This document shows positions 16,624 through 58,239 of a stretch of 64,000 nucleotides of DNA, piece by piece (position 1 is the stretch's first letter; the number at the start of each line of letters is the position of its first letter). The notes beneath the pieces are model-generated. The model worked only from the letters and a program-made list of their open reading frames with translations, made no database searches and had not been told where the DNA came from. The stretch is taken from NCBI GenBank assembly GCA_964019135.1, contig OZ025256.1, positions 37,482,035-37,546,034 of the forward strand. The letters are read 5' to 3'. The DNA is from Arenicola marina (taxonomy: Eukaryota > Annelida > Polychaeta > Arenicolidae). A program made the translations under genes and the position numbers.

Positions 16624-18063
16624 GAGCGTCCTATTAGGATTACAGTTCCAGAGGGCAGGGGGTCGGCCACGAGGAGCCCCCAGGGTCGTGGTAAGGACAG
16701 CGCTCCCCCAACCCCCCGCCGCCTCAGCAGCCCGGCCGCTGGCCTGGCCCACAGCCGCCCAGCCGACCGCCAGGTCGTGCCCAGGCGGTACTCGCTCCAA
16801 GTCCCGCCGCACCATGTCGCTTCGTACCGCACGCGATCCCCGCGAGACCTAGACTCGGAGGCCATGAGCCTGGCGGGCGAGCTGCCCCCCATCCACCCGC
16901 GCTCGGGGTCCGGGTCTCACCGGCGGCGCAGCTCGGGGGCCAGCTCCCTCAAGGACCCCGTCACTAACGGCTACGAGAGCACGGTGCTCATCCCGCTGGA
17001 GGCGCCCTCCCCGACCGACCCCCGGGCCACCGGGCACCCCCACCAGATGAGTCCCTGCGCCACGCCGTCATCCAGCGGCAGCAGCAGCCAGTGGCCCGGG
17101 GCGGGGGGACCCGGGGCGGGGGGACCCGGGGCGGGGGGACCCGGGGCGGGGGGACCCGGGGCGGGGGGACCCAAGGTGGGGCTGCGCGCGGGGCTGCCGC
17201 GGACTCAGTCCTGGTGCGACTCGGACCGCGGGGGGGTCGGCCTGCTCCTGGACAGCAATGGGCTGCAGAGACAGACGGGGCCCAGCGGCGTGACGCCGCG
17301 CGCGGCGGGCAAGCAGCGGCGGCCCGGCCGGGGTCAGCTGAGCGGCCGCTGCCCGGGCCTCACCCCGCGCCGGACGCTATCCAACTCCTACACGGACCTC
17401 TCCAAGCACGAGCCCGAGACCCCCCGCAAGGGCACGGCGCCCGCCCTGCGGCTGAAGATGGCCGAGTACCGGCGCCAGCGGGCGGGACTCCAACGCTTCC
17501 ACAGCGAGCAGGACCTCGCGTCCATGGCAACCAACAATGGCGTAGTCACGCCGCGCGCCGACAGGGTGCGCTCCGACGCCGCTCTGCCTTCCGCCATCGG
17601 TCGGCTGCGGCCGCAGGGTGTCGGGGGCGGGGACGGTGGGGCTGGGGGTGGGGGCGCCGCCGGGGTGGCCACGCCCCGGGGTACTAACGGACTGACTAAG
17701 GCCGCTCAGAACGCCGCCTCCCGCCCCCTCAAGGCAGTGCGCTCACAACCCAACATGGTGTGCCACCCCAGGGACCCGGATATGTACGGCCCCCCACCGA
17801 CCCGCGCGGCGGGGGGCAGGGGCACGCTCCCCGGGGTGGGGGCCACGAGGGTGGACACGCTGGGGACGCGCCAGGGTCAGGGCCAGGGACAGGGCACGGG
17901 GGCGGAAGAGGCGGAGGAGCCCCTCCCGGAGGACACGAAAGTGCGGATCCAGGAGTGGCTGGAGGGGGTGGAGGATGCCGAGCGACCAGAGTCTCCAGCG
18001 ATCCAGGAGGACTCACCAATCCAGACAGACACGTCAATCCACGTAGTGTACAACGGGGACTAG
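16624..18063 (+). CDS. Last coding exon of an unrecognised Ser/Pro/Gly/Arg-rich protein
   Basis: A pyrimidine-rich tract and TTTTCAG at 16617-16623 precede an uninterrupted 479-codon frame in phase 0 (starting E-R-P-I-R-I-T-V-P-E-G), ending at TAG 18061-18063. The frame is GC-rich with biased codons and looks like real coding sequence. It is largely disordered: Ser/Arg-rich start, a PGAGG pentapeptide run (about 17095-17172), basic patches (LRLKMAEYRRQR near 17450), and a more conserved-looking C-terminus, EDTKVRIQEWLEGVEDAE, ending HVVYNGD. Function and family are not recognised. Upstream exons are not in the part I can read. The last seven codons and the stop belong to the first unit of the 28-bp array that follows. 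Confidence 0.7.
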   Translation, partial: ERPIRITVPEGRGSATRSPQGRGKDSAPPTPRRLSSPAAGLAHSRPADRQVVPRRYSLQVPPHHVASYRTRSPRDLDSEAMSLAGELPPIHPRSGSGSHRRRSSGASSLKDPVTNGYESTVLIPLEAPSPTDPRATGHPHQMSPCATPSSSGSSSQWPGAGGPGAGGPGAGGPGAGGPGAGGPKVGLRAGLPRTQSWCDSDRGGVGLLLDSNGLQRQTGPSGVTPRAAGKQRRPGRGQLSGRCPGLTPRRTLSNSYTDLSKHEPETPRKGTAPALRLKMAEYRRQRAGLQRFHSEQDLASMATNNGVVTPRADRVRSDAALPSAIGRLRPQGVGGGDGGAGGGGAAGVATPRGTNGLTKAAQNAASRPLKAVRSQPNMVCHPRDPDMYGPPPTRAAGGRGTLPGVGATRVDTLGTRQGQGQGQGTGAEEAEEPLPEDTKVRIQEWLEGVEDAERPESPAIQEDSPIQTDTSIHVVYNGD

Positions 18064-19353
18064 CCGCCCTGTAGTGTACAACGGGGACTAGCCGCCCTGC
18101 AGTGTACAACGGGGACTAGCCGCCCTGTAGTTTACAACGGGGACTAGCCGCCCTTTAGTGTACAACGGGGACTAGCGGCCCTGTAGTGTACAACGGGGAC
18201 TAGCCGCCCTGTAGTGTACAACGGGGACTAGCCGCCCTGTAGTGTACAACGGGGACTAGCCGCCCTGTAGTGTACAACGGGGACTAGCCGCCCTGTAGGG
18301 TACAACGGGGACTAGCCGCCTTGTAGTGTACAACGGGGTCGAGCCGCCCTGTAGTGTACAACGGGGACTTGCCGCCCTATAGGGTACAACGGAGACTAGC
18401 CGCCCTGTAGTGTACAACGGGGACTAGCCGCCCTGCAGTGTACAACGGGGACTAGCCGCCCTGTAGTGTACAACGGGGACCAGCCGCCCTATAGTGTACA
18501 ACGGGGACTAGCCGCCTGCAGTGTACAACGGGGACTAGCCGCCCTGCAGTGTACAACGGGGACTAGCCGCCCTGCAGTGTACAACGGGGACTAGCCGCCC
18601 TGCAGTGTACAATCGGGATTAGCCGCCCTGTAGTGTGCAACGGGGACTATCCGCCCTGTAGTGTACAAGGGGGACAAGCCGCCTGCAGTGTACAACGGGG
18701 ACTAGCCGCCCTGCAGTGTACAACGGGGACTAGCCGCTCTATAGGGTACAACGGGGACTAGCCGCCGTGTAGTGTACAACAGGGCATAGCCACCCTGTAA
18801 TGTGCAACGGGGACTAGCCGCCCTGTAGGGTACAACGGGAACTAGCCGCCCTGTAGTGTACAACGGAGACTAGCCGCCCTGTAGTGTACAACGGGGACTA
18901 GACGCCATGTAGTGTACAACGGGGACTAGCCGCCTGCAGTGTACAACGGGGACTAGCCGCCCTGTAGTGTACAAGGGGGACAAGCCGCCTGCAGTGTACA
19001 ACGGGGACTAGCCGCCCTGTAGTGTACAAAGGGGACTAGCCGCCCTGTAGTGAACACCATGGAATAAGCCGCCTGCAGTGTACAACGGGGACAAGCCGCC
19101 TGCAGTGTACAACGGGGACTAGCCGCCCTGCAGTGTACAACGGGGACTAGCCGCCCTGCAGTGTACAACGGGGACTAGCCGCCCTATAGTGTACAACGGG
19201 GACTAGCCGCCCTGTAGTGTACAACGGGGACTAGCCGCCCTGTAGTGTACAACGGGGACTAGCCGTGCTGTAGTGTACAACGGGGACTAGCCGCCCTGTA
19301 GTGTACAACGGGGACTAGCCGCCCTGTAGTGTACAATGGGGACTAGCCGCCCT
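18043..19353 (+). repeat. 28-bp minisatellite seeded on the stop codon, about 47 units
   Basis: The unit GTAGTGTACAACGGGGACTA plus GCCGCCCT starts inside the preceding coding exon. There it reads V-V-Y-N-G-D-stop, and it is repeated downstream for 1.3 kb, so every unit carries the ancestral last codons and TAG. Variants (GTAGTG/GCAGTG, AGGGTACAA) occur in runs. It would form most of the 3'UTR. Confidence 0.92.
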
Positions 19354-22300
19354 GACCATCCGTCCGGTAGTGCACTTCCATAATATCATGCACACATATA
19401 TTTCGCTCTGTACATTACCGATGCATGTGATATTGCCATTCCCTCCAGAGCTGTATAGAATCTATGAAATGCCATTGTAATGGAAAAGAAACTGGTCAGG
19501 TCGGGGGCTATACGGTGATTTGTACACCAAACGGCCCCAGTGTATGCACCCCATTGTCTCTCCGGGTCTACGAACAAATGGAAGAAGTAACACAAGTGCA
19601 TAGGTCAGACCCGATGTTGTATGCTGAATACTACGCCGAGTGCCTTCAGACACGTCAGATAAAATCATCGTAGAAGGTCGTCGTTTTTCTCATAGACAAA
19701 CTGAAGTTCGTCTAATCCTATTCTTTGGCAGACATGGTAGCTCCAGATTGTGAATGTATGAATACTGCGGAAGCGCAATTGAATAATAAGAAAAAAATCA
19801 ACTGCCGCCATCTACAGGTATCGATACGTCACAAAATTATGGGGTATTGAAGCCTGTTACCAAGACTACGAACACCCTCGGTGTGAGCGCTTAGGTCATA
19901 CATAGAGTAAACTCCGCATGAGACATCTTATTCATGGTTGTGAATTAAACAAACGTAGAATTAATATGCATTACATGAAATACTGCGCGTGATTAGATCG
20001 TAGTTCATATGTAACAAAGTGTTTCCATTGAAGAGATAGTGAATAGCTAGAATCGACTTTCGGTGGGAAATCTATAATTGGACTTCTCACGGACAAGATG
20101 ACATAAAACTCTGGCGGGTTGTTTTTTTGTATATCAAAAAGGACATATCTTACCCGTCCACAGAATCCTAACAAACAGGTTTACGTGATTATTGTTTGCT
20201 TGCGGTCCGAATGTCCCCCATAATAGTGACGACGGTACCAGTGAATGCAAGCAAAAGTGCTGTTATAGTCCATTTCATAAAAAAAAGAGTGTTGAGTGTT
20301 ACAAGTCGGTATTCATCCACAGTGGGGTGGGGTAGTCGTGTATTTATAGAGGACACTTGTACTTGGTGCCTCACACATTCACTCCGACACAATTAAGCCG
20401 CTCTGTGATATATATATATTCTTGCCTGTTTGTTGTGTATCGCTTTGTCATGTTACCTGCAGCCTGAGCCATATTTATACAAGTGTACAATAACCAAGGT
20501 CGGTTCTCGCGTGAGACGGTGACATACGTTATTGACCTATAAAATAATATACCAGCCTTCTTGTGTCTTGGTTTTTACGAATTTACTTGCGCTATATAAC
20601 GCCAATACACATGATGAGAGATCATGTTTCAATTGTTTCGCTTTAACCCGTAGGGTCGTATCGGGACAAATAGGGGGCCTAAGGGTGTCCACCAATAATA
20701 ATTATAATAAAGCCTTGAAATGACGTTTTCGGTTGCATGGCAAAAGGTGATATGCACACACAAAAACAAACTGTCAAAACGTCTTCATTCCAACATCTGC
20801 ACGGTGGCGATGTTGAGACCAAGGGCCATACACATCTGCACGGTGGCGATGTTGAGACCAAGGGCCATACACTGAACCGATGATGGCAAACGTCATGGAC
20901 AGACTGTTAGTCTCGGCCTTAGACCGTGAAGACCAGGAAAGTGGAAGACTGGCATGAGGTCAGACAACAGTCGACCGGCAGCTCCCTCAATAAGGAGATG
21001 AAGAAGAGAATGAAGGACTAAATGGAATGAAGACTAAATGAAAAGGACATGTGTGGAGCAAGAATATACAAAGGAGAAGAACGAGAGGAGGACAGAGAAG
21101 CAGAAGAATGGAGATACAGGATGGATCTCAACCCTACAACTTATTACGTTGTTAAGAAGTATCACCCTTAACATTTGGTGACAAACTGGATGCTCTAGCG
21201 CGGTTGTCACTGGACCAATATATTGACTGCCCGAACCGCAGATCCAATCATATATTGTAAGTTCCAACCTTTAATGGTAGTAAGAGCAAAGCAAAATGAG
21301 CAAAGACCTCTACACTAGCTTGGGAAAACGTTTCCAGAAATTACCAGCCGGGCAAAAGTATTATGCATGAAATCATGTTATGAAAGGATAAATTAGTTAG
21401 AGACCAATCAACCAAATTTGGCTCGAGCTACTGAAACAAGTCCGACTTCCAAGCCGGTTAACCCTTTGCGACACCCTCTGTACAAATACCAACTACACGT
21501 ACGTTATGCCTGACGAAGGATCGCAATATGTCTGCTTTATGTCTCGGTGTCGTGCTTAAAGACCTCGTAACGGCCCAGTTTCATGTTGTCAAGAAGCAGT
21601 TTGTATTCTAAATTACTCCCAGTTTTATTAGAGTGACAAGACAAGACACCACGTGCCGGATCACCGAAACCGGGAACTAGGGAGTTATTTAGAGAACACG
21701 GACTCACATTCTGGTGAACGAGTGTTTGCAACCAACATAAAACGTGTCAAAAAAACAAAAACAATAATACGTTTTATTTAGCTCGCCCCCAGCTGGTTTT
21801 GAAAACATCTTTTTGAAATATTAATTATCAGGTAATATTGGAAAAGAGGTACACAAGAACTAACTTACGGGTTGTCTATAAAATTTATTCGCATAAAATA
21901 GCTAGCTTCCCAAGTGAAGCACAATACTGAGAAAGTATAAATAAATATGAAAAGTATCGAGGAATGATATCACAACGAAGAGTATTCTACAGCACTGGAC
22001 AGCTAAGACGTTACAACCAAAAACAAATGGTAAAAACGAGCATATACAGAGCTAGCCCCAGTTCTGTGATTGTAGGACGGGCAAAAATCTGACAGGGCCT
22101 TACAGTCACAGATCATGGGCTAGTACAGAGCATGGTGTACACACGGAATGTTGTGCACATAGCCTCAAGGATACATACACATTGCCTATAAAGGCTAACG
22201 CTAATATGTAAGATGATATGACGAGATAATACCTCCAAACATAAAACAAATACATTAATCCTTTTTTTAAGTCTTTCGTTGGTTTTGATTTACTGCCAGA

Positions 22301-22360
22301 GAAATACACGTGTTTCGCCACCATATAAACATCGTTCACCCTCGGGCTATCCATGAGACA
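19354..22360. other. No gene recognised; 39-bp tandem duplication
   Basis: This is mostly AT-rich unique sequence. A perfect 39-bp tandem duplication (ACATCTGCACGGTGGCGATG...) lies at 20793-20870. AATAAA at 20706-20711 is a possible plus-strand polyadenylation signal but is far from the exon at 16624. On the minus strand AATAAA at 21884-21889 is a candidate signal for the ZDHHC transcript. Confidence 0.4.
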
Positions 22361-22592
22361 GACAGAGTGTCTGTCTCCACTCCCACAGATCAAACCTCGG
22401 TCACACAGACTTGCCCTGGGGCACCCTATCACCGTACGACAGAGTGTCTGTCTCCACTCCCACAGACCAGACCTCGGTCACACAGACTTGCCCTGGGGCA
22501 CCCTATCACCGTACGACAGAGTGTCTGTCTCCACTCCCACAGACCAGACCTCGGTCACACAGACTTGCCCTGGGGCACCCTATCACCGTACG
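22361..22592 (-). repeat. 77-bp tandem repeat, 3 units, containing the ZDHHC stop codon
   Basis: The three units start at 22361, 22438 and 22515 and are nearly identical. The 22515 unit, first in gene orientation, holds the last codons of the palmitoyltransferase (Y-G-D-R-V-P-Q-G-K-S-V) and its TGA at 22555-22557. The other two are downstream copies in the 3'UTR. Confidence 0.93.
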
Positions 22593-23541
22593 CCCCCGGT
22601 ATCGGCAGGAAGGGTAGCGGTGCCAGGAAGTGCAGCGGCCAACAGCACCCGAAGACCGCGCGCAGGTTGTGGCAGAGTCGGCGCAGGGACCACGGCAGAC
22701 CCTTGGTGAACTCGTGCGTCGTCTGCCCGACCAGCACGAGGAAGAACTGCCACGAGAACATGGCCACGGTGCCCAGCGCCGATATCCCGCACAGGTAGAG
22801 CAGGCATATCGCCAGCATGAGGCCTCCCTCCACGTACCCGAGCAGCCACTCCAGGCAGGCCAGGGGCAGCATGTAGTGGGCCACCCCCATGGGCTGTCCG
22901 CCCAGGAAGGCGGCGTGTAGCGCCTGCCAGGTGAGCCAGGAGCAGTACGAGGCCCCCAGCGCGCAGTGCAGGATGAAGGCCAGGAAGTAGCGGTGGTTCT
23001 CCAACCCGACGCAGGAGCCCGTGAAGAAGCAGTGGTGGTCCCGCCGCATCACGCACCTCCGACACAGCACGCAGTGGTGGGCGCGCGGGGGCACCCACAG
23101 CTCACAGTCCGGACACGGCTTCCAGTTGGTCCCAGGCAGGGACCAGGAGTCTGCCACAGAGGCGGCGCCAGATGTGGCGGCACCGGACGTGGCGGCGCCA
23201 GATGTGGCGGCCATTCCTGACGACGAATCGGGTCGACAGAAGCTCTTCCGGCGCATCACGAACCAGAAGTTCACTGCCACATTGGCAAAGAGGTAGAGTA
23301 TGACGGCTGACTCTGTCTGATGCGATACTGCGGGGGAGTGCTGGGCTAACACTGGCAGCGACCAGGTCAGCGCAGATATCGTCATCGTCAGAGACACGGT
23401 AATCGAGTACGAGATGCCGCTGATACTCATGCACCGCAGAAGGTCTTTGTCGGACATTTTTTTCTTTTCCTCCGAGGTGAGTGAATTGAGCGGCCCTGCT
23501 TTGAGCCTCTGGATGAAGCTTTGCGGTTCATCCCGGGCCAT
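22555..23541 (-). CDS. ZDHHC24-like: DHHC palmitoyltransferase, ZDHHC24-like
   Basis: A 328-residue single-exon frame encodes a membrane S-acyltransferase, which transfers palmitate to cysteines of target proteins. Hydrophobic segments lie near 44-64, 78-96, 184-205 and 224-270. The Cys-rich domain (about 143-177) has the C-x2-C...HC-x2-C-x2-C pattern and the catalytic D168-H-H-C171. A TTHE (TTxE) motif follows at 274-277. V-P-P-R, R-R-D-H-H-C, Q-T-T-x-E and the CHNL...W...P end match ZDHHC24, while F-F-T-G after DHHC is like ZDHHC22. The N-terminal tail is longer than in vertebrate ZDHHC24 and holds an AATSG x3 run (111-125). ATG at 23541 is in good context (ACGATGG). A TTTCAG upstream (about 23576) may be a 5'UTR acceptor. 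The stop lies in a 77-bp tandem repeat. Confidence 0.88.
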   Translation of the reverse strand: MARDEPQSFIQRLKAGPLNSLTSEEKKKMSDKDLLRCMSISGISYSITVSLTMTISALTWSLPVLAQHSPAVSHQTESAVILYLFANVAVNFWFVMRRKSFCRPDSSSGMAATSGAATSGAATSGAASVADSWSLPGTNWKPCPDCELWVPPRAHHCVLCRRCVMRRDHHCFFTGSCVGLENHRYFLAFILHCALGASYCSWLTWQALHAAFLGGQPMGVAHYMLPLACLEWLLGYVEGGLMLAICLLYLCGISALGTVAMFSWQFFLVLVGQTTHEFTKGLPWSLRRLCHNLRAVFGCCWPLHFLAPLPFLPIPGAYGDRVPQGKSV

Positions 23542-23579
23542 CGTTTTTCTTCACAACTGGGACAGACACTGAAAGCTGA

Positions 23580-32449: not shown

Positions 32450-35400
32450 ATGGCCACTTGTGACAACATGACAGACATTCTAGATGGTGAGTTGGCGTGG
32501 TAATACAGGTTTTGTGTTGACAAGAATAGGCAAATGTCTCGTCTCGTGTACATTACCGTACTCTCGCACCTGTGCCTCAGGAAAAAAAGAGAACTGAGGT
32601 GACATTTTGTGTAATGTAGATACCATAAGAGATTACAATCATATCAATCCATCCCATGTGTTCTGAAATGGAATACCCTTGCAGAGTCAATACATGAGAC
32701 TACCAAGAACATCATAAGAATGTGATATATCCAGTCTCTCTTTTGTATGTTGCTATTTGGTATAAAATATAAGAACATATTGTTTGTCTTATGGTAAAGC
32801 TGTCATTTTATAACTGCCGTATATTATGTGTTGTATTTTGCAGGCTGTGATGTGTGTGGTGGAGACCACTGTGTGGAACAATGTCCAGAGCTTGGCTACA
32901 ATGAACCAGGAACCTCCCTAAACACCATTACTCGGTATGTGTAATTACAAGTCAAACATTACACTGTCAGTTCCAGTATCAATTAGATGCTTATAACAAT
33001 GAGTCATAAGATGTACCAACATTGTTTTTGTTCTATTGTTAAACTGGTATTAAATGGTTCAAAGATAAAACATGTTCTGTCTATGCCCGTAATTCAAGAG
33101 TGGTAATTTATTTAAGTTTGAGTTGAAATGAAGGGTACGCATTACTATTATGCATACTATTATGATATTGCTGTTACCTACAGGGTTTGTGCTTTAGTAT
33201 TACGGTACATTGTATTATTCCTGTGTGTGCAGGGCCAGAGCTACGTTACCCACAGGGTTTGTGGCAGTGGATCACGATGACGGACGCGTCAGTGTCATTG
33301 TTACCCAGTCTCTTCCGGCGCGCACCAAGCTCGGCCCGTACGAGGCCCCCAGAACCACTCACAGCATAGAGGGCGTCAATGCCTTCGTCCTCAAGGTAGG
33401 CGTTCGCCACCAGTGTCACTGACAGGCCTCCCAGCATTCATATATTTTTTGTGCCACTCCTATAGTTTAGTATCCCTAAAACAAAATGTGTCTTAACAAC
33501 ATACATGCTCCTCCTGTCAAACCTGGGCAGGCAATGCAATGCCTGCCGTTTGACAGTTAGCCTTGCTAAAGCCGGCTGGTTTTTATTAGCTGCTTGACAA
33601 GTAGAACATAATCTTCAAGTTTTATGTATTATTATGAGAAAAATCTGCAACAAGATAATGATTTCTTAAGCAACAGTGCGGTCCACACTACAGGCAGCAT
33701 GTTACGCTGTAAATAACTTGTTCAAGGTAGAGGGTTAGGAGGTATATTAATGAATATTACTTGTCAAAGTTTAAGGTGCAATGACCTAAAAGACTAAAGT
33801 AAAAAATTAGTCTTAGGCCAGAGAAATTCGGCTCATCCAACTGATCTTGGTCTTAATAAATTGGACCGATATGTCGGTAAAACAATCGGATATAGACCTC
33901 AGGTAACAGTGATCAATCCAAGATTATTTAACATGTCCAACTAATACTTAGGACGTCTCTCCTGTACATTATGTTGATGACCTTCAGGTGCTGGTGAGGG
34001 ACAGCCTGCCGGTGTGCCTGAACACGAGCCGCGAGTCTGACTGTAACTGGCTGTGCTTGGTGTCCACCGCCTCCAGCCTTGCCGAACAGAACTGTATGGC
34101 GCTCCAGATAGGCACCGACATCTACTACATGACGACCCGCGACGTGGCCGTGGACGAGCCGCTCAAAGTGTGGTACGCGCCGCACTACGCCAAGAAACTG
34201 GGCTACAGTCCACAGCCCACCGGCCTAACCAATGGTGAGTCCGCCCGAGTGCCTTCCCCAGTCCACAACCCACCGGCCTAACCAATGGTGAGTCCGCAGG
34301 AGTGCCTCCCCCAGTCCACAGCCCACCGGCCTAACCAATGGTGAGTCCGCCCGAGTGCCTCCCCAGTCCACAGCCCACCGGCCTAACCAATGGTGAGTCC
34401 GCCCGAGTGCCTTCCCCAGTCCACAGCCCACCGGCCTAACCAATGGTGAGTCCGCCCGAGTGCCTTCCCCATTCCACAGCCCACCGGCCTAACCAATGGT
34501 GAGTCCGCCCGAGTGCCTTCCCCAGTCCGCAGCCCACCGGCCTAACCAATGGTGAGTCCGCCCGAGTGCCTCCCCCAGTCCACAGCCCACCGGCCTAACC
34601 AATGGTGAGTCCGCCCGAGTGCCTTCCCCAGTCCGCAGCCCACCGGCCTAACCAATGGTGAGTCCGCCCGAGTGCCTTCCCCAGTCCACAACCCACCGGC
34701 CTAACCAATGGTGAGCCCGCCCGAGTGCCTTCCCCAGTCCGCAGCCCACCGGCCTAACCAATGGTGAGTCCGCCCGAGTGCCTTCCCCAGTCCGCAGCCC
34801 ACCGGCCTAACCAATGGTGAATCCGCCCGAGTGCCTTCCCCAGTCCACAACCCACCGGCCTAACCAATGGTGAGTCCGCCCGAGTGCCTTCCCCAGTCCG
34901 CAGCCCACCGGCCTAACCAATGGTGAGTCCGCCCGAGTGCCTTCCCCAGTCCACAGCCCACCGGCCTAACCAATGATGAGTCCGCCCGAGTGCCTCCCCC
35001 GGTCCACAGCCCACCGGCCTAACCAATGGTGAGTCCGCCCGAGTGCCTCCCCCAGTCCACAGCCCACCGACCAAACCAATGGTGAGTCCGCCCGAGTGCC
35101 TTCCCCAGTCCACAGCCCACCGGCCTAACCAATGGTGAGTCCGCCCGAGTGCCTCCCCCAGTCCACAGCCCACCGGCCTAACCAATGGTGAGCCCGCCCG
35201 AGTGCCTTCCCCAGTCCACAGCCCACCGGCCTAACCAATGGTGAGTCTGCCCGAGTGCCTCCCCCAGTCCACAGCCCACCGGCCTAACCAATGGTGAGTC
35301 CGCCCGAGTGCCTTCCCCAGTCCACAGCCCACCGGCCTAACCAATGGTGAGCCCGCCCGAGTGCCTTCCCCAGTCCACAGCCCACCGGCCTAACCAATGG

Positions 35401-38400: not shown

Positions 38401-41400
38401 CCCGCCGGCCTAACCAATGGTGAGCCCGCCCGAGTGCCACTCCCAGACCACAGCCCACCGACCTAACCAATGGTGAGTCCGCCCGAGTGCCACTCCCAGT
38501 CCACAGCCTGCCGGCCTAACCAATGGTGAGCCCGCCCGAGTGCCACTCCCAGGCCACTGCCCACCGGCCTAACCAATGGTGAGCCCGCCCGAGTGCCTCC
38601 CCCAGTCCACAGCCCACCGGCCTAACCAATGGTGAGTCCGCCCGAGTGCCTCCCCCAGGCCACAGCCCACCGGCCTAACCAATGGTGAGCCCGCCCGAGT
38701 GCCTTCCCCAGTCCACAGCCCACCGGCCTAACCAATGGTGAGTCCGCCCGAGTGCCTCCCCCAGGCCACAGCCCACCGGCCTAACCAATGGTGAGCCCGC
38801 CCGAGTGCCTTCCCCAGTCCACAGCCCACCGGCCTAACCAATGGTGAGTCCGCCCGAGTGCCACTCCCAGGCCACAGCCCACCGGCCTAACCAATGGTGA
38901 GCCCGCCCGAGTGCCTCCCCCAGTCCACAGCCCACCGGCCTAACCAATGGTGAGTCCGCCCGAGTGCCTCCCCCAGGCCACAGCCCACCGGCCTAACCAA
39001 TGGTGAGCCCGCCCGAGTGCCTTCCCCAGTCCACAGCCCACCGGCCTAACCAATGGTGAGTCCGCCCGAGTGCCTCCCCCAGGCCACAGCCCACCGGCCT
39101 AACCAATGGTGAGTCCGCCCGAGTGCTTCCCCCAGGCCACAGCCCACCGGCCTAACCAATGGTGAGCCCGCCCGAGTGCCTTCCCCAGTCCACAGCCCAC
39201 CGGCCTAACCAATGGTGAGTCCGCCCGAGTGCCTTCCCCAGTCCACAGCCCACCGGCCTAACCAATGGTGAGTCCGCCCGAGTGCCTCCCCAGTCCACAG
39301 CCCACCGGCCTAACCAATGGTGAGCCCGCCCGAGTGCCTCCCCCAGTCCACAGCCCACCGGCCTAACCAATGGTGAGCCCGCCCGAGTGCCACTCCCAGG
39401 CCACAGCCCACCGGCCTAACCAATGGTGAGCCCGCCCGAGTGCCTCCCCCAGTCCACAGCCCACCGGCCTAACCAATGGTGAGCCCGCCCGAGTGCCTCC
39501 CCCAGTCCACAGCCCACCGGCCTAACCAATGGTGAGCCCGCCCGAGTGCCACTCCCAGGCCACTGCCCACCGGCCTAACCAATGGTGAGTCCGCCCGAGT
39601 GCCACTCCCAGGCCACAGCCCACCGGCCTAACCAATGGTGAGCCCGCCCGAGTGCCTCCCCCAGTCCACAGCCCACCGGCCTAACCAATGGTGAGCCCGC
39701 CCGAGTGCCACTCCCAGGCCACAGCCCACCGGCCTAACCAATGGTGAGCCCGCCCGAGTGCCTCCCCCAGTCCACAGCCCACCGGCCTAACCAATGGTGA
39801 GCCCGCCCGAGTGCCTCCCCCAGTCCACTGCCCACCGGCCTAACCAATGGTGAGTCCGCCCGAGTGCCACTCCCAGTCCACAGCCCGCCGGCCTAACCAA
39901 TGGTGAGCCCGCCCGAGTGCCACTCCCAGGCCACTGCCCACCGGCCTAACCAATGGTGAGCCCGCCCGAGTGCCTCCCCCAGTCCACAGCCCACCGGCCT
40001 AACCAATGGTGAGTCCGCCCGAGTGCCACTCCCAGTCCACAGCCCGCCGGCCTAACCAATGGTGAGCCCGCCCGAGTGCCACTCCCAGGCCACTGCCCAC
40101 CGGCCTAACCAATGGTGAGCCCGCCCGAGTGCCTCCCCCAGTCCACAGCCCACCGGCCTAACCAATGGTGAGTCCGCCCGAGTGCCTTCCCCAGTCCACA
40201 GCCCACCGGCCTAACCAATGGTGAGTCCGCCCGAGTGCCTTCCCCAGTCCACAGCCCACCGGCCTAACCAATGGTGAGCCCGCCCGAGTGCCTCCCCCAG
40301 GCCACTACACACCAACATTGCTACGCCCAGTTCCCTCACTACACACCAACAGTGTCAGTCCTAGTCACCAACAGCATTTCCTCCGCTTTTGGCTTAATTT
40401 TTAATTTTGATCTAACAATGAACTATAATATGAAATATCTCTGCATATATATCGTATTTCCAGAAGAAAATTATAAACTAGAAAGATGGGTGTGCGGTTC
40501 TTGTATTCGAGTGCAATTGCTGTTTACTATCCCCCGGGTGTTGGCACACCTGCCTGTTTGTTTATTTCCAGTATTGTTGAACTGTGTGGTGAAGGACCAG
40601 ACCTCTGAGGATGTGAGCGGGATCGGACTAGACCACACCAGCTTCCTGGATGATCCACTCTATTGTAATCAGCGCAGTGAGTATATTAACTTGTCTTCTT
40701 TTGATTACATGACATTTGTTGAATTCCTTACTTAAGACTGATTACTTTCGATATTTATTTGATTTAGATGTAGCCATGGTGAAGCAAAATGTAGTGTTGT
40801 CCATGGCGGGCGCAAGAAGACCAGTTTAACTATATTACCCGAAGGGAATGAGCCAGAAGTGTCTCGACTAACACGCGTGATATGCATAGCAAAGATGTAA
40901 TAGCTGAGCGAATGTTGGAATGAAGTGTTTGATACAGCTACTGACGGTCCTGTTATGTAGCCGACCGCGTGACTTACGCCCACCTTGTGGTTCGCGCAGG
41001 TCCGTCTCCCAAGAAGAGCTTAGAGGACGTGAGCGGCAAGCGCACCCTGTACCCGTGCCTGGAACACGGATGTAGCCTGCTGTTCAACCAGCGCGCCGAC
41101 CTGCTGACCCACAACGAGGCTCACCGCCTGGCCCCGACCCCCGACCTGGAGACCCCGGGTGAGGAGGCCCTGGGGTCGACTGGGGACGAGGCGAGCCCCC
41201 TCCGGGGCCTCAACAGGCTGAGGTCCGGGTACGAGGCGGCTGTGGGGCCCAGCAGCGGGCTGAGCCTGTTGGCGTGCATCCCCCCGACAGCCCACATCCG
41301 CCACAAGGCGGGCGGGCCGCACGAGTGCTCCCAGTGCATGGCCGTGTACGACGACCTCAAGGAGATGGCCAAACACGTGCGCGACCACGTGTTGGACTCG

Positions 41401-44400: not shown

Positions 44401-44853
44401 GTCCTCCAGGCCATGCCCACCCTCATCGAGCACTTGACGGGCGTGAAGTCGCAGGGGGACGCGGTCTCGCAGGCCCGGCACGTCATCCTGCCGGACTCGC
44501 TGATGGGCGGCCACGAGCCCGTCATCCTGGCCGAGGTGCAGGGCATGACGTCAGACGGCGAGGCATTCGGCTTGCCGCAGACGGTCATCATACAGTCGGA
44601 CGACCAGGACCTGGAGCGCAACGGCGTCATCTCGGAGGAGGTGGCGCAGGCGCTGCGCTCGCTCTCCATGCAGGGGATGCTGGAGCGCGGCGAGCAGCAA
44701 ACCATCACCATCGGCGACATCTCCAGTCCCCGCGGCCAGTCCATCCCCATCGCGCTGTCGGCGGACGGCTTGGGCAACCCCCAGGGCGTCGTCATAGTGC
44801 CCATGGCTAGCGACTCCCAGGAGGGGGCCGCCGAGCAGAGTGTCGAGCTCTGA
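32450..44853 (+). CDS. PRDM15-like: PRDM-family PR/zinc-finger transcription regulator, PRDM15-like
   Basis: Six coding exons join in phase: 32450-32486, 32844-32934, 33233-33395, 33988-34234, 40572-40676 and 41000-44853 (about 1498 aa). All have GT donors and AG acceptors. Residues about 16-30 form a zinc knuckle (C-x2-C...H-C...C-P-E-L-G), followed by a PR domain (about 43-165) with R-A-R-x-x-L-P, L-G-P-Y-E, S-D-C-N-W and L-K-V-W-Y-A-P-H-Y-A-K-K, closest in my memory to PRDM15 and next to PRDM10. More than 20 zinc fingers follow. Such proteins bind DNA in the nucleus and recruit cofactors; PR domains of this branch usually lack strong methyltransferase activity. A TGA sits in frame directly before the ATG, and an upstream alternative start is possible. 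Intron 4 is a 6-kb minisatellite built from the end of exon 4, and the stop codon lies in a second array. Confidence 0.88.
34207..40305 (+). repeat. 53-bp minisatellite of exon-4 end plus splice donor, about 115 units
   Basis: The first unit is the last 28 bases of PRDM exon 4 (AGTCCACAGCCCACCGGCCT then AACCAATG) joined to the first 25 bases of the intron (GTGAGTCCGCCCGAGTGCCT then TCCCC). The whole is repeated to 40305 and fills the intron almost completely. Nearly every unit keeps AATG|GTGAGT or AATG|GTGAGC, and most keep a CCTTCCCCAG or CCCCCAG acceptor-like sequence before the exonic part. Higher-order copies are present (for example 36715-36933 equals 39152-39370). Confidence 0.95.
41000..44853 (+). 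CDS. PRDM15-like: Zinc-finger and C-terminal exon of the PRDM gene
   Basis: This exon encodes residues about 215-1498. Two isolated fingers (from about 41064 and 41320) flank a basic, acidic-patch linker with K-x-K-R-R nuclear-localisation-like clusters. One more finger lies at 42199, and a continuous block runs from 42388 to 44053. In the block, five successive pairs alternate a classical C2H2 finger with a C2HC finger (endings H..H, then H..C: HMAAH/HWAKC, HRKLH/HQC, HLDTH/HLVTC, HIYMH/HVDTC, HKSVH/HAC), followed by seven classical fingers. The last 260 residues are Gly/Gln/Asp-rich and resemble a transactivation tail. The acceptor (TTCGCGCAG|G at 40999) has a weak pyrimidine tract. The long minus-strand frames over this exon are shadows. 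Confidence 0.92.
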
Positions 44854-46995
44854 CACCCCTTACCCCACGCCAGTGTCGCTCGGACACCCCACACCCCCCG
44901 CCACTGTCGCTCTGACACCCCACATCCCCGGCCAGAGTGTCGCGCTCTGACACCCCACACCCTCCGCCAGTGTCACTCTGACACCCCGCACCCCCGGCCA
45001 GTGTCGCTCTGACACCCCACACTCCCGGCCAGTGACGCTCTGACACCCCACACCCCCGGCCAGTGACGCTCTGACACCCCACACCCCCGGCCAGTGACGC
45101 TCTGACACCCCTGACCCCCGGCCAGTGTCGCTCTGACACCCCTCACCCCCCGCCACTGTCGCTCTGACACCCCACACCCCCGGCCAGTGACGCTCTGACG
45201 CCCCTCACCTCCGGCCAGTGTCGCTCTGACACCCTCACCCCCGGCCAGTGACGCTCTGACACCCCTCACCCCCCGCCACTGTGGCTCTGACACCCCACAT
45301 CCCCGGTCAGAGTGTCGCGCTCTGACACCCCACACCCTCCGCCAGTGGCGCTCTGACACCCCACACCCCGGGCCAGTGTCGCTCTGACACCCCACACCCC
45401 CGGCCAGTGTCGCTCTGACACTCCACACCCCCGGCCAGTGTCGCTCTGACACCCCTCACCCCCCGCCAGTGTCGCTCTGACACCCCACACCCCCAGCCAG
45501 TGCCGCTCTGACACCCCTCACCCCGTGCCAGTGTCGCTCTGACACCCTCACCCCCGGCCAGTGACGCTCTGACACCCCTCACCCCCCGCCACTGTCGCTC
45601 TGACACCCCTCACCCCCGGCCAGTGTCGCTCTGACATCCCTCACCCCCGGCCAGTGTCGCTCTGACACCCCACACCCCCGGCCAGTGACGCTCTGACACC
45701 CCTCACCCCCGGCCAGAGTGTCTAGGTCTGACACCCCACACCCCCCGCCAGTGTCGCTCTGACACCCCACACCCCCGGCCAGTGTCCCTCTGACACCCCA
45801 CACCCCCGGCCAGTGACGCTCTGACATCCATCACCCCCGGCCAGTGTCGCTCTGACACCCCACACCCCCGGCCAGTGACGCTCTGACACCCCTCACCCCC
45901 GGCCAGAGTGTCTAGGTCTGACACCCCACACCCCCCGCCAGTGTCGCTCTGACACCCCACACCCCCGGCCAGTGACGTTCTGACACCCCACACTCCCGGC
46001 CAGTGACGCTCTGACACCCCACACCCCCGGCCAGTGACGCTCTGACACCCCTCACCCCCGGCCAGTGTCGCTCTGACACCCCTCACCCCCCGCCAGTGTC
46101 GCTCTGACACCCCACACCCCCGGCCAGTGTCGCTCTGACACCCCACACCCCCGGCCAGTGTCGCTCTGACACCCCTCACCCCCCGCCAGTGTCGCTCTGA
46201 CACCCCACACCCCCGTCCAGTGCCGCTCTGACACCCCTCACCCCCGGCCAGTGTCGCTCTGACACCCTCACCCCCGGCCAGTGACGCTCTGACACCCCTC
46301 ACCCCCCGCCACTGTCGCTCTGACACCCCACACCCCCGGCCAGTGTCCCTCTGACACCCCACACCCTCGGCCAGTGACGCTCTGACACCCTGCACCCCCC
46401 GCCAGTGGCGCTCTGACACCCCGCACCCCCGGCCAGAGTGTCTAGGTCTGACACCCCGCACCCCCGGCCAGAGTGTCTAGGTCTGACACCCCTCACCCCC
46501 CGCCAGTGTCGCTCTGACACCCCTCACCCCCCGCCAGTGTCGCTCTGACACCCCACACCCCCGGCCAGTGACGCTCTGACACCCCTCACCCCCGCCAGTG
46601 TCGCTCTGACACCCTGCACCCCCCGCCAGTGGCGCTCTGACACCCCGCACCCCCGGCCAGAGTGTCTAGGTCTGACACCCCACACCCCCGGCCAGTGACG
46701 CTCTGACATCCCTCACCCCCGGCCAGTGACGCTCTGACACCCCTCACCCCCGGCCAGAGTGTCTAGGTCTGACACCCCACACCCCCGGCCAGTGACGCTC
46801 TGACACCCCTCACCCCCCGCCAGTGTCGCTCTGACACCCCACACCCCCGGCATGTGACGCTCTGACACCCCTCACCCCCCGCCAGTGTCGCTCTGACACC
46901 CCACAGCCCCGGCCAGTGTCGCTCTGACACCCCGCACCCCCGGCCAGTGTCGCTCTGACACCCCGCACCTCCCGCCTCCCGCCAGTGCTCTGACA
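44837..46995 (+). repeat. 31-bp minisatellite seeded on the PRDM stop codon, about 69 units
   Basis: The unit AGTGTCGCTCTGACACCCCA plus CACCCCCGGCC begins in the coding exon, where AGTGTCGAGCTCTGA encodes the final S-V-E-L-stop, and continues as a 2.1-kb 3'UTR array. Longer units with AGAGTGTCGCGCTCTGA or AGAGTGTCTAGGTCTGA recur in it. Confidence 0.92.
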
Positions 46996-49273: not shown

Positions 49274-52200
49274 CTACTCCTTCTTGGTCTGCCTGCCCAC
49301 AAACTCGTCCATGGTGCTGTTGATGCCCAGCGCATTGCTGACGTACAGCGAGGCCTTGATCGGCAACAGGCTGCAGGAAACAACGTCAGGCCATTATACA
49401 CGAGACTCTGCCAGGTCTAACGTGAGGTGATTGCATCAAGCAAACATTCCAATATGAATACTTTTATTTCGATGAGCACGGACACGAATACATTTTTCTA
49501 AGATGTATTTAAATACAAATATTTCCACAAGTGTATTCACGAATGCATTGATATGGGTCTGGAAGGGGTGGTTAATGGCGACACTGACAAGGTCATATAA
49601 AAAAATAAGACATTCGACATTGACCCTCAAATTCCCACACCGAGGATCAAGCGACATCGACACTGATATTGGCAAAAAAAATGACACTGAACGTCGTGAG
49701 AATTTTGAAAAATCGACACTGGACACTATTTTTCTTATTGAAACCTTGCGATGTTTCCTTGACAAAGAAACATATTTGGTATATTGCGTTTTGATCTTCT
49801 ACGTTATTTGTTCTAATATCAGGCTGTCCAGCACACCCTCATGAAAAAGTAGGACAAAAGTAGGAATGGAAATACAGAAAAAGTAGGACAAAAGTAGGAA
49901 AATAGAAGCAAAACGTATGACTCAAATAGCATATGTAGCAACATTATTCCAGATAAACAAATAACAAAAATTATATTACTTAGAACATGCTTTTTTAGAA
50001 CATTTGTTATATGCTGCTCAGCTGTACCTGTATTTTCATTATTAGAACTTGACGGACACTAGTGTTGATTTAAAGATATATCAGGACGCAAAAACAAAAT
50101 ACCTCTGACTTTTGCAATAATAGACGCGACATCCACACTTTACAGCAATTCACGACACTTTGAAATTGCGCCTGGTGAAGCAAATACTAAAAAGTAGGAA
50201 AATGTAGGTATTTTGAAGAAAAAGTAGGATCACTGGACAGCCTGTAATATAGCTATTCTAGCTTTGTTAATTCAATCAAATCTTCGGACAAATGCCGCAG
50301 ACTGCGTGACAAACCCTCATTAACACCTTAAGCACCGCACCGAGTGAGAGTTCAAGGTCACGGACATTCACTAACTTTACCAACCTCGCTAGTGCTTTCT
50401 ACGGTTGTATAATAGCGGGTGTCGCCATGGCAACGACGCAAGCAGGCCATGAGCAAGAACTGTTACAGAGAAGGGTCAAGGAAACGATGGAGCCATATTT
50501 CCCGGCTTGGACATAGCGTCTTTATCCTTCACACAGTAGCGCACGAGGACGCTGGCTAGATAGGGAGGGCTCAGCCGAGCCGACTGCTGTAGCAGTGGTA
50601 AAGTAGGTTGGTTAGTTATCCAGGACGCTTTAACCACTTTTGATCATATTGTGTCAATGGGAGAAGAAAGGGAGAGTGGAGCCATGTCCCCGGGGGTAAC
50701 CCCCGAACCATATATCCACGTGCCGTTAGGCTCTCAGGTGGCCAGAGCACTCGATGCGAGCGCTTCCAGCCTAAAGAGCTATCGCGCCGGCCCCAGGAGT
50801 AAAGTAGGATATCATATCATGAAACAATGACTGACTGCTTGAGGACGGCGAAGATATAGACGAGGCGCGGGAGGTAGAGGGCTTGTTGGTTGGTCAGCAC
50901 CGCCTCCAGGATCTTGTCCACCGCGTAATCCTGGTCCAGCAGTGCCATCAACTTCGGGTACCTGCAAAGTAGTGGGAAAACATGGATTCTAATCTAGCCT
51001 CTTTCATTTAATAGTTATTCAATTCATTCAATAGTTTGGTGACATTGTCCATACTTTTTTGTTCATGTATGGCGCATGAAAAAAAAAAAAAAATGTGTTT
51101 AAATCTGGGGTAGTACAATACTGGTTGTGATATCTTCCTCAAACATCACGGTCCACATATGATATATTTACAAGAAGATGTTATGCAACTGATACGTACT
51201 CGTGTGTCAGATTCGTCCGTTAACTGCATGCAAAAGATTTACATTTGAGTCAAAATACGAAAAGTAGGCAAGTCGGGTCAGAGTACTTTGACTCGACGCC
51301 GTCAAACATACCAGTGTTGATATAGAAGGGACAGACTTACTTTGACTCGACGCCGTCAAACATACCAGTGTTGATATAGAAGGGACAGTACTTACTTTGA
51401 CTCGACGCCGTCAGACATACCAGTGTTGACATAGAAGGGACAGTACTTACTTTGACTGGACGCCGTCAAAAACATACCAGTGTTGATATAGAAGGGACAG
51501 AGTACTTACTTTGACTGGACGCCGTCAGACATACCAGTGTTGATATAGAAGGGACAGAGTACTTACTTTGACTCGACGCCGTCAGACATACCAGTGTTGA
51601 TATAGACGGGACAGAGTACTTACTTTGACTCGACGCCGTCAAACATACCAGTGTTGATATAGAAGGGACAGAGTACTTACTTTGACTCGACGCCGTCAAA
51701 CATACCAGTGTTGATATATAAGGGACAGTACTTACTTTGACTGGACGCCGTCAAACATACCAGTGTTGATATAGAAGGGACAGAGTACTTACTTTGACTG
51801 GACGCCGTCAAACATACCAGTGTTGATATAGAAGGGACAGAGTACTTACTTTGACTGGACGCCGTCAAACATACCAGTGTTGATATAGAAGGGACAGAGT
51901 ACTTTGCCTGGTCGCCGTCAAACATACCGGTGTTGATAAAGAAGAGACAGATTACTTACTTTGACTGGACGCCGTCAAACATACCAGTGTTGATACAGAA
52001 GGGACAGTACTTACTTTGACTGGACGCCGTCAAACATACCAGTGTTGATATAGAAGGGACAGAGTACTTACTTTGACTGGACGCCGTCAAACATACCAGT
52101 GTTGATATAGAAGGGACAGAGTACTTGCTTTGACTGAACGCCGTCAGACATACCAGTGTTCATATAGAAGGGACAGAGTACTTACTTTGACTGGACGCCG

Positions 52201-55200
52201 TCAAACATACCAGTGTTGATATAGACGGGACAGAGTACTTACTTTGACTGGACGCCGTCAAACATACCAGTGTTGATATAGAAGGGACAGAGTACTTTCT
52301 TTGACTGGACGCCGTCAAACATACCAGTGTTGATATAGAAGGGACAGAGTACTTACTTTGACTGGACGCCGTCAAACATACCAGTGTTGATATAGAAGGG
52401 ACCGAGTACTTTGACTGGACGCCGTCAAACATACCAGTGTTGATAAAGAAGGGACAGATTACTTACTTTGACTGGACGCCGTCAAACATACCAGTGTTGA
52501 TATAGAAGGGACAGAGTACTTACTTTGACTGGACGCCGTCAAACATACCAGTGTTCATATAGAAGGGACAGAGTACTTACTTTGACTGGACGCCGTCAAA
52601 CATACCAGTGTTGATATAGAAAGGACAGAGTACTTTGACTCGACGCCGTCAAACATAGCAGTGTTGATATAGAAGGGACAGAGTATTTACTTTGACTTGA
52701 CGCCGTCAAACATACCAGTGTTGATATAGAAAGGACAGAGTACTTTGACTCGACGCCGTCAAACATAGCAGTGTTGATATAGAAGGGACAGAGTATTTAC
52801 TTTGACTCGACGCCGTCAAACATACCAGTGTTGATATAGAAAGGACAGAGTACTTTGACTGGACGCCGTCAAACATACCAGTGTTCATATAGAAGAGACA
52901 GAGTACTTACTTTGACTGAACGCCGTCAAACATACCAGTGTTGATATAGAAGGGACAGAGTACTTACTTTGACTGGACGCCGTCAAACATACCAGTGTTG
53001 ATATAGACGGGACAGAGTACTTACTTTGACTGGACGCCGTCAAACATACCAGTGTTGATATAGAAGGGACAGAGTACTTACTTTGACTGGACGCCGTCAA
53101 ACATACCAGTGTTGATATAGACGGGACAGAGTACTTACTTTGACTGGACGCCGTCAAACATACCAGTGTTCATATAGAAGGGACAGAGTACTTACTTTGA
53201 CTGGACGCCGTCAAACATACCAGTGTTGATATAGAAAGGACAGAGTACTTTGACTCGACGCCGTCAAACATAGCAGTGTTGATATAGAATGGACAGAGTA
53301 CTTACTTTGACTTGACGCCGTCAAACATAGCAGTGTTGATATAGAAGGGACAGAGTACTTACTTTGACTTGACGCCGTCAAACATACCAGTGTTGATATA
53401 GAATGGACAGACGACGGTGGTGTGGACCTTGTCTTTACCCAGACAGCTTAGTTCGTTCCGTAGCGACTCATCAAAGCCGACGGCCGCGTGTTTACTGGCG
53501 CAGTAGTCACACAGACCTGGAACAGAAACACGCTCCAATAGTACTGTCATCACAAAAATTATTCAGATTTAGGCGAGCCACAAACTGGCGAAATAAGCAA
53601 GCCATTGTTTATTAACTACGGTAAATTAATCTTTCGACATGCATACAATTTGGGGTTTGATACACACTTAGGAACTGATACATGAGTTATATCATATTGA
53701 GACGCATACACGTGTACGTTCTGGTAAAATGAAAGTAATATGTTACAGGAGTATGTGCAGACATACTTAGAGATGTAGATATCATATTCATGTAAAATAT
53801 AGCATAACAGACAAGCGTCTGACACTGACCATTGACTCCACTGAGTCCAGCAGCGCTCGCTATCGTTACAATGTGTCCCTTGTTCTTCTTCATCATGGCC
53901 GGCAGGAAGGACTTCACCGTCTGTACAACCATAAGCAACAGTCATAGACCTAACTTCACCAAACTTATGTTCCTTACCTTACTTACGTTTCTTATCTTAC
54001 GTAAGATTATAACAAATGCACTGGCATGAAGCTGTATTACACTGATTTACCATAAAATAACAAATATAGTTTGATACAAATACTACCGGTATGTATACAT
54101 TCCGTTAAAACAGTGGGTCATTTACACTGATACCATAGTGCTGATTTTATTTGATTTGAGCTTAACGGCACTGGCATATCGTGCCTTACTGGTGCAGTTC
54201 AGTTTAAATAACTCAAGAGTCGGTGTTAAATCCCTGAAGATACTGGTAGCCAATGATCAATTGACTTATAAAACACTGAAAACATCAACTACCTGTCAGT
54301 AATATGTTTAAAACCATGAACGTGAACAACAGTAAAACAATGAAGTGAATAGGTTGTCAGACTATAAAACCATGAATGTTCGTATCGATTTAAATCGCTT
54401 TAAAACCAGTCTTTCGCAATTAATATGTACCAACTGTGAAATACTTACACATTACCTTAGTCAGCATGGTCAGTGCTACTTTTACAAGTGTGCAAGGTTA
54501 AACTATTGAAGGTTTAGAATTGAATATATATTTCCAGCATTAGAAATTTAACCCACATGTAATCAGTAATTATATTATGTACTCTTACCCAGAAATGAGC
54601 ATTGGCATTGACTTGCATGGTTTTCTCTACAAGATGGTCAGGGCACTGCATGAATTTTCTGCCAGTAACTATTCCAGCATTGTTCACAAGGATGTCTACA
54701 TCACCAGCCTCAGATTTTGTCTGAAAAATAATAATGTATTTTCTGGACAAACAATTTTATTATAAATAAAATTATAAAATTATTATAAAAAGTATAATGA
54801 CACAAAATGAATGTCATGAGTGTTTACCATGAAATATCCCATCCTATGTTATAGTCACCATACCTTTTCAGCTGCCTTGTAAATTTCTTCTCTGGAGCTC
54901 AAGTCAACTGTGTATGTGAAAGCCTCAGCTCCCAGTTCCCGCACATGTTCAGCTGTTGTTTCATTCCCCTGACTATTTATATCCCACAGTACCAGTCGGC
55001 ATCCAAGTTTAGCAAAACGTAGAGACATCAATCGCCCCAAACCACTACCTGTAAAATGAATTGAACAGATCTACTTAACAGTATTTCAAACGAAAACTCA
55101 CATAAACCATATCATGCAATACCAGAAATAGGTAAACCAAGAGGGGTCACTCTTGAATACATTCAAAGATACTGTTAATAAGCAATTTATATGTGGGATT

Positions 55201-58200: not shown

Positions 58201-58239
58201 GACAACAGTTGCCCACAGAATTTCAAGTGCGGGATGCAT
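49274..58239 (-). CDS. SDR16C5-like: Membrane-anchored short-chain dehydrogenase, SDR16C5/RDH10-like
   Basis: Seven exons join in phase on the minus strand: 58239-58098, 55048-54864, 54720-54589, 53920-53830, 53516-53363, 50961-50836 and 49370-49274, giving 308 aa, the usual family length. Residues about 7-32 are a hydrophobic anchor. T-G-A-G-S-G-L-G (45-52) binds NAD(P), W-D-I-N follows strand 2, NNAG is at 122-125, and the catalytic Ser175, Tyr188 and Lys192 (Y-C-A-S-K) are intact. [11 protein letters not shown] matches SDR16C5. By family it oxidises retinol (or related lipid alcohols) at the ER or lipid-droplet membrane in retinoic acid synthesis. An in-frame ATG 30 codons upstream (58329) is an alternative start; I chose 58239 for length and anchor position. 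The donor of exon 5 is amplified in a 57-bp array. Introns hold two MITEs, a TRIM and other repeats. Confidence 0.9.
49820..50244. mobile_element. 425-bp MITE with CAGGCTGTCCAG termini
   Basis: CAGGCTGTCCAG (49820-49831) and its complement CTGGACAGCCTG (50233-50244) form the ends, and TAATAT flanks both (49814-49819, 50245-50250). AAAGTAGGA motifs recur inside near both ends. It has no coding capacity and lies in the last SDR intron. Confidence 0.7.
50690..50800 (-). repeat. tRNA-like segment in SDR intron (possible SINE)
   Basis: On the minus strand GATAGCTCTTTAGGCTGGAA resembles a D-arm/box A, and GGTTCGGGGGTTACCCCC (ending near 50693) resembles a box B region about 75 nt later. The spacing is too long and the stems too imperfect for a working tRNA. 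Confidence 0.3.
51280..53410 (-). repeat. 57-bp minisatellite of SDR exon-5 end plus splice donor, about 37 units
   Basis: In gene sense each unit reads the end of exon 5 ([17 protein letters not shown]) followed by the donor GTAAGTACTCTG, then the next copy. Units nearest the exon (53280-53410) keep the exon-like GTCAAGTCAAA, and distal ones mostly have GTCCAGTCAAA or GTCGAGTCAAA. A minority lack the ACTTAC stretch (plus strand), which removes the donor and shortens the unit to about 50 bp. Confidence 0.95.
55498..56955. mobile_element. Unclassified element with internal 62-bp tandem repeats
   Basis: The left boundary ATACTAGCAGCCCTGCTCGC (about 55498) and a right boundary ending GAAGCTTCAT-like then TTTTATTAGTAT (about 56938-56952) share an inverted ATACTA terminus. 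Internally, 56200-56690 contains about eight degenerate copies of a 62-bp unit (AACTGTAAAGTTGGATACTG...TGTAGTC). A single related unit at 55530-55580 shows the array is part of the element. A 100-codon frame (55625-55927) has no recognised family. The boundaries are inferred, and the class is unknown. Confidence 0.4.
57102..57319. mobile_element. 218-bp palindromic MITE
   Basis: The ends GTGGGCTCGCGCTAG and CTAACGCGAGCCCAG are inverted copies with a few differences. ACAGT flanks both sides (57097-57101, 57320-57324). The interior repeats TTAGCCAAATT/CTCGCCAAAT-type motifs in both orientations. It is non-coding and lies in SDR intron 1. Confidence 0.7.
57373..57907 (+). mobile_element. TRIM-like miniature LTR element with tRNA-type promoter in its LTRs
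   Basis: Two direct repeats of about 199 bp (57373-57571 and 57708-57907) enclose only 136 bp. The element is flanked by CATC on both sides (57369-57372, 57908-57911). The first repeat runs TG...CA. The first LTR is followed at once by a primer-binding-like TGGTGCCGTGACC, and the second is preceded by a purine tract (GGGGAAAGGGTGGAG). Each LTR holds a tRNA-like box A (TGGCCTAACGTG at 57442 in copy 1) and box B (GGTTCGAAACC at 57486), 44 nt apart as in tRNA genes. No gag/pol is present, as expected for a TRIM, and it looks structurally whole. The two LTRs differ at roughly 7% of positions, suggesting an old insertion. It lies in SDR intron 1. Confidence 0.75.

Follow-up and report, generated by a model that had tools for sequence, protein, structure and literature searches.

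Why do minisatellites begin where coding exons end? The question is raised by a stretch of Arenicola marina DNA (contig OZ025256.1, positions 37,482,035 to 37,546,034 of the forward strand; 64,000 bp, called the window in the following). In five of its 11 large non-coding tandem arrays the first, exon-proximal unit spans the 3' end of an exon: two contain a splice donor and three contain a stop codon. According to unit segmentation and the gene models, this unit consists in all five of the last coding nucleotides of the exon and the neighbouring sequence. The five-array observation is real, and it is improbable by chance within the window. Our interpretation, to which we assign a probability of roughly 0.55, is that minisatellites of the mirage type (so named in amphioxus, see below) have an ordinary birth and then pass a one-sided selective filter which keeps the arrays at the 3' edges of exons. 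The five arrays, all called with Tandem Repeats Finder (TRF), are the following.

18043..19354, plus strand: A28, a 28-bp minisatellite of 47 copies, the unit being the last six codons of gene A, TAG and 7 nt
22361..22592, minus strand: B77, a 77-bp array of 3 copies with its exon-side unit at the high coordinate
34206..40313, plus strand: C53, a 53-bp minisatellite of ~115 copies and ~6 kb, from TRF (34206-40305) and unit segmentation
44835..46990, plus strand: C31, a 31-bp minisatellite of ~68 copies, called by TRF at 44847-46974 with homology from ~44835
51284..53411, minus strand: D57, a 57-bp minisatellite of ~38 copies with its exon-side unit at the high coordinate

The first-pass annotation of this DNA had listed five arrays with an exon 3' end in the first unit, two at donors and three at stops, and all of them were found again by TRF, segmentation and gene modelling. 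Its positions have to be amended for the two arrays on the minus strand, whose exon-side units lie at the high coordinates 22592 and 53411 and not at 22361 and 51280.

TRF returned 50 rows for the window, and overlapping rows were merged. Arrays were counted as large at a TRF score of at least 450, a threshold that was chosen post hoc and that B77 (score 450) only just passes. Rows nested in larger arrays, alternative periods of one array and coding-internal rows were left out. A 6-bp repeat at position 13936 was excluded too, and so were 11 small rows in non-coding sequence, which score 50-164. The 11 large arrays together cover 21,472 bp of the 64,000 (~34%). The six others, at 5278, 7365, 12551, 15310, 56199 and 58617, do not span an exon end. 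Among these, the 33-bp array at 15310-16546 also shows the multiples 68 and 101 bp; it ends 77 bp upstream of the last exon of gene A and does not lie over the exon 5' end.

The exon ends are those of gene models that are based solely on reading frames, on splice signals and on homology. The models comprise 16 exons with 11 donors, 5 stops, 13 acceptors and 3 starts. The exons needed for the five arrays are:

16624..18063, plus strand: last exon of gene A, an open frame after a consensus acceptor, ending ...HVVYNGD-TAG within the first A28 unit (stop at 18061-18063)
22555..23541, minus strand: single coding exon of gene B, with start and stop, encoding a DHHC palmitoyltransferase of 328 aa (Pfam PF01529, E 5.9e-30, residues 140-280)
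33988..34234, plus strand: exon 4 of gene C, the end of the PR domain (Pfam PRDM2_PR, E 1.9e-27), with the donor GTGAGT after 34234
32450-32486, 32844-32934, 33233-33395, 40572-40676 and 41000-44853, plus strand: the remaining modelled exons of gene C
53363..53516, minus strand: exon 5 of gene D, an SDR dehydrogenase nearest to HSD17B13/11 (8g9v, E 2.3e-73; 1yb1, E 2.2e-70), joined frame open

Gene A is without a Pfam family match at E 0.1. Gene C is a PR-domain zinc-finger gene whose top solved-structure match is PRDM10 (3ihx). Its zinc fingers were recognised by eye in the translation, and its joined frame is open for 1498 codons with a single terminal stop. Gene D has seven coding exons, and the joined frame is likewise open to a single terminal stop. 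A fifth model, gene E, consists of a repeat-rich last exon and has the open frame alone as its basis.

The two donor arrays have the simplest anatomy. The C53 unit is composed of the last 29 nt of exon 4 of gene C and 24 intron nt starting with GTGAGT. The single intron that it occupies contains 114 near-consensus ATG/GTG donors, and the motif GGTGAG occurs 113 times in the ~115 units. The D57 unit is composed of the last 49 nt of exon 5 of gene D (53411-53363, minus strand) followed by GTAAGT; TCAAAGTAAGT is present 27 times in the ~38 units. A higher-order period of 167 bp was also seen in D57 (51284-53411). The coding part of the first D57 unit includes the peptide CPFYINTG, which aligns with HSD17B13 and HSD17B11. 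As this peptide is conserved in the SDR family, the exon gave rise to the array and not the other way round. The exon end in C53 aligns with PRDM11 and PRDM1, more weakly than D57 does with its family.

The consequences of donor choice were compared in both genes. With the first donor, the frame reaches its stop after 1498 codons in gene C and after 308 codons in gene D. With the seven later donors that were tested in each array (of 113 in C53 and of 26 in D57), it stops after 194 and 235 codons, respectively. Among the eight donors tested per array, the frame thus stays open only with the first one, and the working donor in the C53 intron should be the first.

In C53 and D57, that is in two of the five arrays, the units span an exon-intron boundary, and in both of them the splice signals are retained in most copies. 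These are the features of mirages, minisatellite-like copies of exon-intron boundaries, which in amphioxus Adh3 have units of 10-72 bp (PMC3087553). In the same work, a unit of 150-160 bp is given for the globin BflGb6, made up of an intron's 3' end and the 5' part of exon 2, and one of 157 bp for the globin BflGb9, from the 3' boundary of its exon 2. A further mirage, in PGBD5, has its first repeats directly next to 5' splice sites, although 3' splice sites with repeats are mentioned as well; a troponin C mirage is cited there (PMC3902484). According to PMC3087553 and PMC3902484, splicing seems to remain normal in genes with mirages; the former paper describes it as apparently intact and also reports length instability. 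As in amphioxus, the tandem copies in our window span the exon-intron boundary and many of them retain splice signals. The donor arrays C53 and D57 therefore belong by their anatomy to the described mirage kind, and the precedent in amphioxus Adh3 that the first-pass annotation had named is borne out by both papers. Unlike the amphioxus mirages, however, the largest of the present arrays has ~115 copies in ~6 kb, and a stop codon is spanned in three of the five, a situation unmentioned in the available parts of PMC3087553 and PMC3902484.

Other repeats at exon boundaries are less similar. Human segmental duplications contain ~30-bp minisatellites that overlap exon boundaries and have been linked to new introns (PMC2812944). 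In contrast to the present arrays these have four copies on average and occur in recent paralogs; the term "stop codon" is absent from the main text of that paper. In the Rogers model, introns are gained by tandem duplication of AGGT segments (as cited in PMC3087553; potato RdRp, PMC4974935). There, as in our arrays, an exon piece is tandemly duplicated, in the model together with a proto-splice site, whereas in the window the intron was already present and the duplication took in no more than its donor edge. Amphioxus VCBP3 introns carry complete or partial exon copies beside similar exons, some with canonical splice sites, but these are described as exon copies and not as minisatellite arrays (PMC2632668). 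The exon-end class was not found in the available parts of the papers on amphioxus huntingtin (PMC2206037) and earthworm metallothionein (PMC12783039).

In the gene models used here, the three stop-codon arrays do not span a splice site. A28 starts in frame with GTA GTG TAC AAC GGG GAC TAG. The exon-side unit of B77 holds the last 37-38 coding nt of gene B including TGA (22555-22557, minus strand), and the first unit of C31 begins within the final ~5 codons and TGA (44851-44853) of gene C. In all three the stop sits within unit 1, in frame with the upstream coding sequence. The coding sequence of an ancestor with only one copy of this unit therefore ended at this very stop, and all added copies lie wholly downstream of it. 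The alternative that we are looking at a run-in artefact, in which any frame entering an array meets a stop, was set aside because the stop was already inside the in-frame unit 1 of the one-copy ancestor. If the arrays were entered in the other frames, stops would be met after 0.14 and 1.14 units in A28, 0.13 and 1.13 in B77, and 2.61 and 3.74 in C31. Conversion of unit 1 by inner units may have taken place. The stop motifs recur in most units (GACTAG 36 times in A28, TCTGACA 66 times in C31). Open runs in the 450 bases past each of the three arrays extend to at most 80, 84 and 52 codons, lengths that are compatible both with and without a loss of downstream coding sequence.

The stop-codon arrays are hence a natural variant of mirage minisatellites and not members of the exon-intron class. 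No description of them was found among the papers listed by our literature searches, outside of which most subscription papers lay; this is no proof of absence. The donor class is already known.

How improbable is it that five arrays come to lie at exon ends? For a null expectation each array was reduced to one unit, seeds of equal length were placed at random, and the seeds straddling an exon 3' end were counted; all enrichment statistics are post hoc and refer to this single window. With uniform seeds 0.15 edge arrays are expected versus five observed (exact P of at least five = 1.9e-7). When frame-breaking seeds within coding sequence were barred, the expectation was 0.18 (P = 3.7e-7); when seeds were in addition matched for G+C content (GC) within 5 points, it rose to 0.33 (P = 5.9e-6). 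In genic DNA alone, defined as the gene regions and ~500 bp on each side and containing seven arrays, 0.36 are expected (P = 5.4e-6). Addition of the 11 small non-coding repeats gave 5 of 22 with an expectation of 0.27 (P = 5.3e-6). The three stops alone yielded P = 1.9e-5 (1.3e-4 in genic DNA). In these calculations the high end of D57 was entered as 53404, where segmentation gives 53411; the effect is expected to be very small. The excess of edge arrays over the nulls is roughly 14- to 33-fold.

The enrichment at exon edges is therefore strong, and the earlier judgement that five such coincidences are implausible by chance agrees with the non-randomness under all nulls tried (P 1.9e-7 to 5.9e-6), read as post hoc values from one window. 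A look-elsewhere effect could still have produced the pattern: in a repeat-rich genome many windows are scanned and a pattern is chosen afterwards. The 11 arrays fill about one third of the window, six of them are not at exon ends, and the two donor arrays taken alone reach only P = 0.006, or 0.023 in genic DNA. Yet the four selection-aware nulls give P values of 3.7e-7 to 5.9e-6, and the published amphioxus cases are independent of our window, provided that the present genome is of that kind. Chance is in our view a distinctly improbable explanation.

The sidedness of the arrays is less firmly established than their enrichment. None of the 16 modelled exon 5' ends is straddled by an array, and the contrast of 5/16 3' ends with 0/16 5' ends has a Fisher P of 0.043. 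Split by signal, it is 2/11 donors versus 0/13 acceptors (P = 0.20) and 3/5 stops versus 0/3 starts (P = 0.20). The preference for 3' over 5' ends is thus only suggestive. When all 32 exon edges were searched for self-shifts, the five arrays were recovered (C31 via period 97, which was the best of its ungapped shifts), and there was no clear tandem copy besides them. Weak scores of 2 and 1 were obtained at the 5' edges of exons C2 and C6. A match at the 5' edge of exon D5 (53516) was set aside, as it represents a continuation of the D57 array at 73% identity.

The interpretation that we favour is that selection acts as a filter on duplications of ordinary origin. A short tandem duplication would be generated by ordinary slippage or unequal exchange, would by chance come to lie across the 3' border of a coding exon, and would later grow as minisatellites do. 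If splicing takes the donor nearest to the exon body and translation takes the first stop, unit 1 would stay the real exon end, and further copies would fall in the intron or in the 3' untranslated region (3'UTR), where they would go unread. By contrast, a duplication at an acceptor or a start codon would place additional, seemingly functional signals ahead of the genuine one and would be harmful. From what is generally known of splicing and scanning, the harm on the acceptor side would be greater when the unit is too short for a branch point. The published acceptor-side globin mirage has a unit of 150-160 bp and could therefore hold branch point, tract and AG together. Within coding sequence, a duplication would break the frame unless its unit is a multiple of three. 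All eight coding-internal TRF rows with a score of at least 50, which lie at four places, have periods of 9, 12, 15, 18 or 27, each divisible by three. The periods of the edge arrays are indivisible by three in four of five cases (28, 77, 53, 31), and the fifth (57) carries an in-frame TAA at the donor. Donors and stops would share a single property, namely that expression does not see additional copies downstream of them. The loss of the frame with the later donors tested in C53 and D57 and the position of the stops within unit 1 of the three stop arrays also speak for the filter. Such a filter accounts for most of the qualitative pattern, including its sidedness.

Several points weigh against this interpretation. 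The filter alone leaves the excess of edge arrays (5/11) unexplained: nulls that take the filter into account still expect just 0.18-0.36 arrays where five are seen, so that an extra bias to exon ends or to GC-rich coding sequence seems to be needed. The one-sidedness is based on five cases. Coding-internal rows scoring 30-49 obey the rule of three in 10 of 13 cases, the exceptions having periods of 7, 10 and 10 bp and ~2 copies. Finally, in three of the four arrays examined unit by unit (C53, C31, D57) the copies seem to be slightly more conserved in their exon-derived part than elsewhere, which is not predicted by plain neutrality; the identities are 0.974 vs 0.940, 0.956 vs 0.918 and 0.965 vs 0.923, and the exonic/intronic split of D57 was one base off in this comparison. 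In A28 the relation is reversed (0.946 for the exon-derived part, 0.954 for the rest).

The missing bias could be sought in a mutational process that favours exon 3' ends or coding sequence, for example through sharp GC drops from exon to flank, R-loops or transcription-coupled repair. It would account for five arrays where 0.15-0.36 are expected, and GC does fall from the exon side to the far side at all five arrays when 300 nt are taken on each side (0.70 to 0.47, 0.67 to 0.41, 0.55 to 0.41, 0.68 to 0.42 and 0.44 to 0.35). However, matching for GC lifts the expectation merely to 0.33, acceptor-side mirages have also been published, and the excess itself comes post hoc from one window. Moreover, stops and donors are without a common known DNA signal. 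A stop codon is, to our knowledge, no signal at the DNA level at all. As the explanation of the arrays such a process is possible but doubtful. Since all five arrays lie at a GC drop, a composition-linked mutational bias may nevertheless add to the selective filter.

A stricter form of this idea, that tandem duplications in this lineage arise preferentially at coding-exon 3' ends, at donors and stops alike, through a process linked to gene expression or to the change of composition from coding to noncoding sequence, appears unlikely to us. If it were true, exon ends all over the genome would give rise to minisatellites and would supply raw material from which introns and 3'UTRs could be formed. 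A process that nucleates duplication where coding sequence ends, as suggested in the first-pass annotation, is possible but not supported, given the weak contrast between 3' and 5' ends, the published acceptor-side mirage of BflGb6 and the lack of a known DNA-level signal at stops; the anatomy, the non-randomness under the nulls tried and the donor precedent stand.

The units themselves bear on two further explanations. Identity to the consensus is 0.93-0.97 by array quarter, with a trend along the array only in A28, where the exon-side quarter is closest (0.974 vs 0.929-0.945). Adjacent units are scarcely more similar than distant ones, as expected from whole-array turnover. Distinct units make up 28 of 48 segments in A28, 35 of 116 in C53, 44 of 70 in C31 and 26 of 38 in D57. 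The large numbers of retained donor motifs (113 in C53, 27 in D57) would fit positive selection for arrays with a function at gene ends, be it as decoy donors, in regulation through the intron or 3'UTR, or in recombination control. But the general unit identity is already ~0.92-0.97, so retention may need no selection, and we consider a function of this kind very improbable. An assembly artefact is scarcely credible. Long arrays are error-prone, and copy-number disagreement or aberrant assembly has been noted at amphioxus mirage loci (PMC3902484, PMC3087553), but the units of A28, C53, C31 and D57 differ among themselves, and the exon-side unit continues the open reading frame in all five arrays.

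Two further elements were noticed by eye in the same window. One, at 24100-25310, is a ~1.2-kb inverted-repeat element whose ends are GTCTCACTTTATAGCGAAAAGACGTG... and its reverse complement; it is probably a non-autonomous DNA transposon. The other is a tRNA-like element present in two copies (57386-57600 and 57710-57910) in intron 1 of the SDR gene, probably a short interspersed element (SINE). ARAGORN found no tRNA in the window, the tRNA-like element included, and a search of Rfam gave no matches. The patterns of the inverted-repeat and the SINE-like element had no matches (0) in viral contigs.

If the excess at exon ends holds genome-wide, the birth and survival of minisatellites would be tied to gene anatomy, and the amphioxus mirage observation would become general and quantitative, with a counterpart at stop codons. 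The proposed filter predicts tolerance at 3' edges, where the first signal wins, and intolerance at 5' edges, a prediction applicable to any repeat-rich assembly. Independently of this, the ~114 donors of almost identical sequence within a single PRDM-gene intron offer an uncommon natural experiment on how a 5' splice site is chosen.

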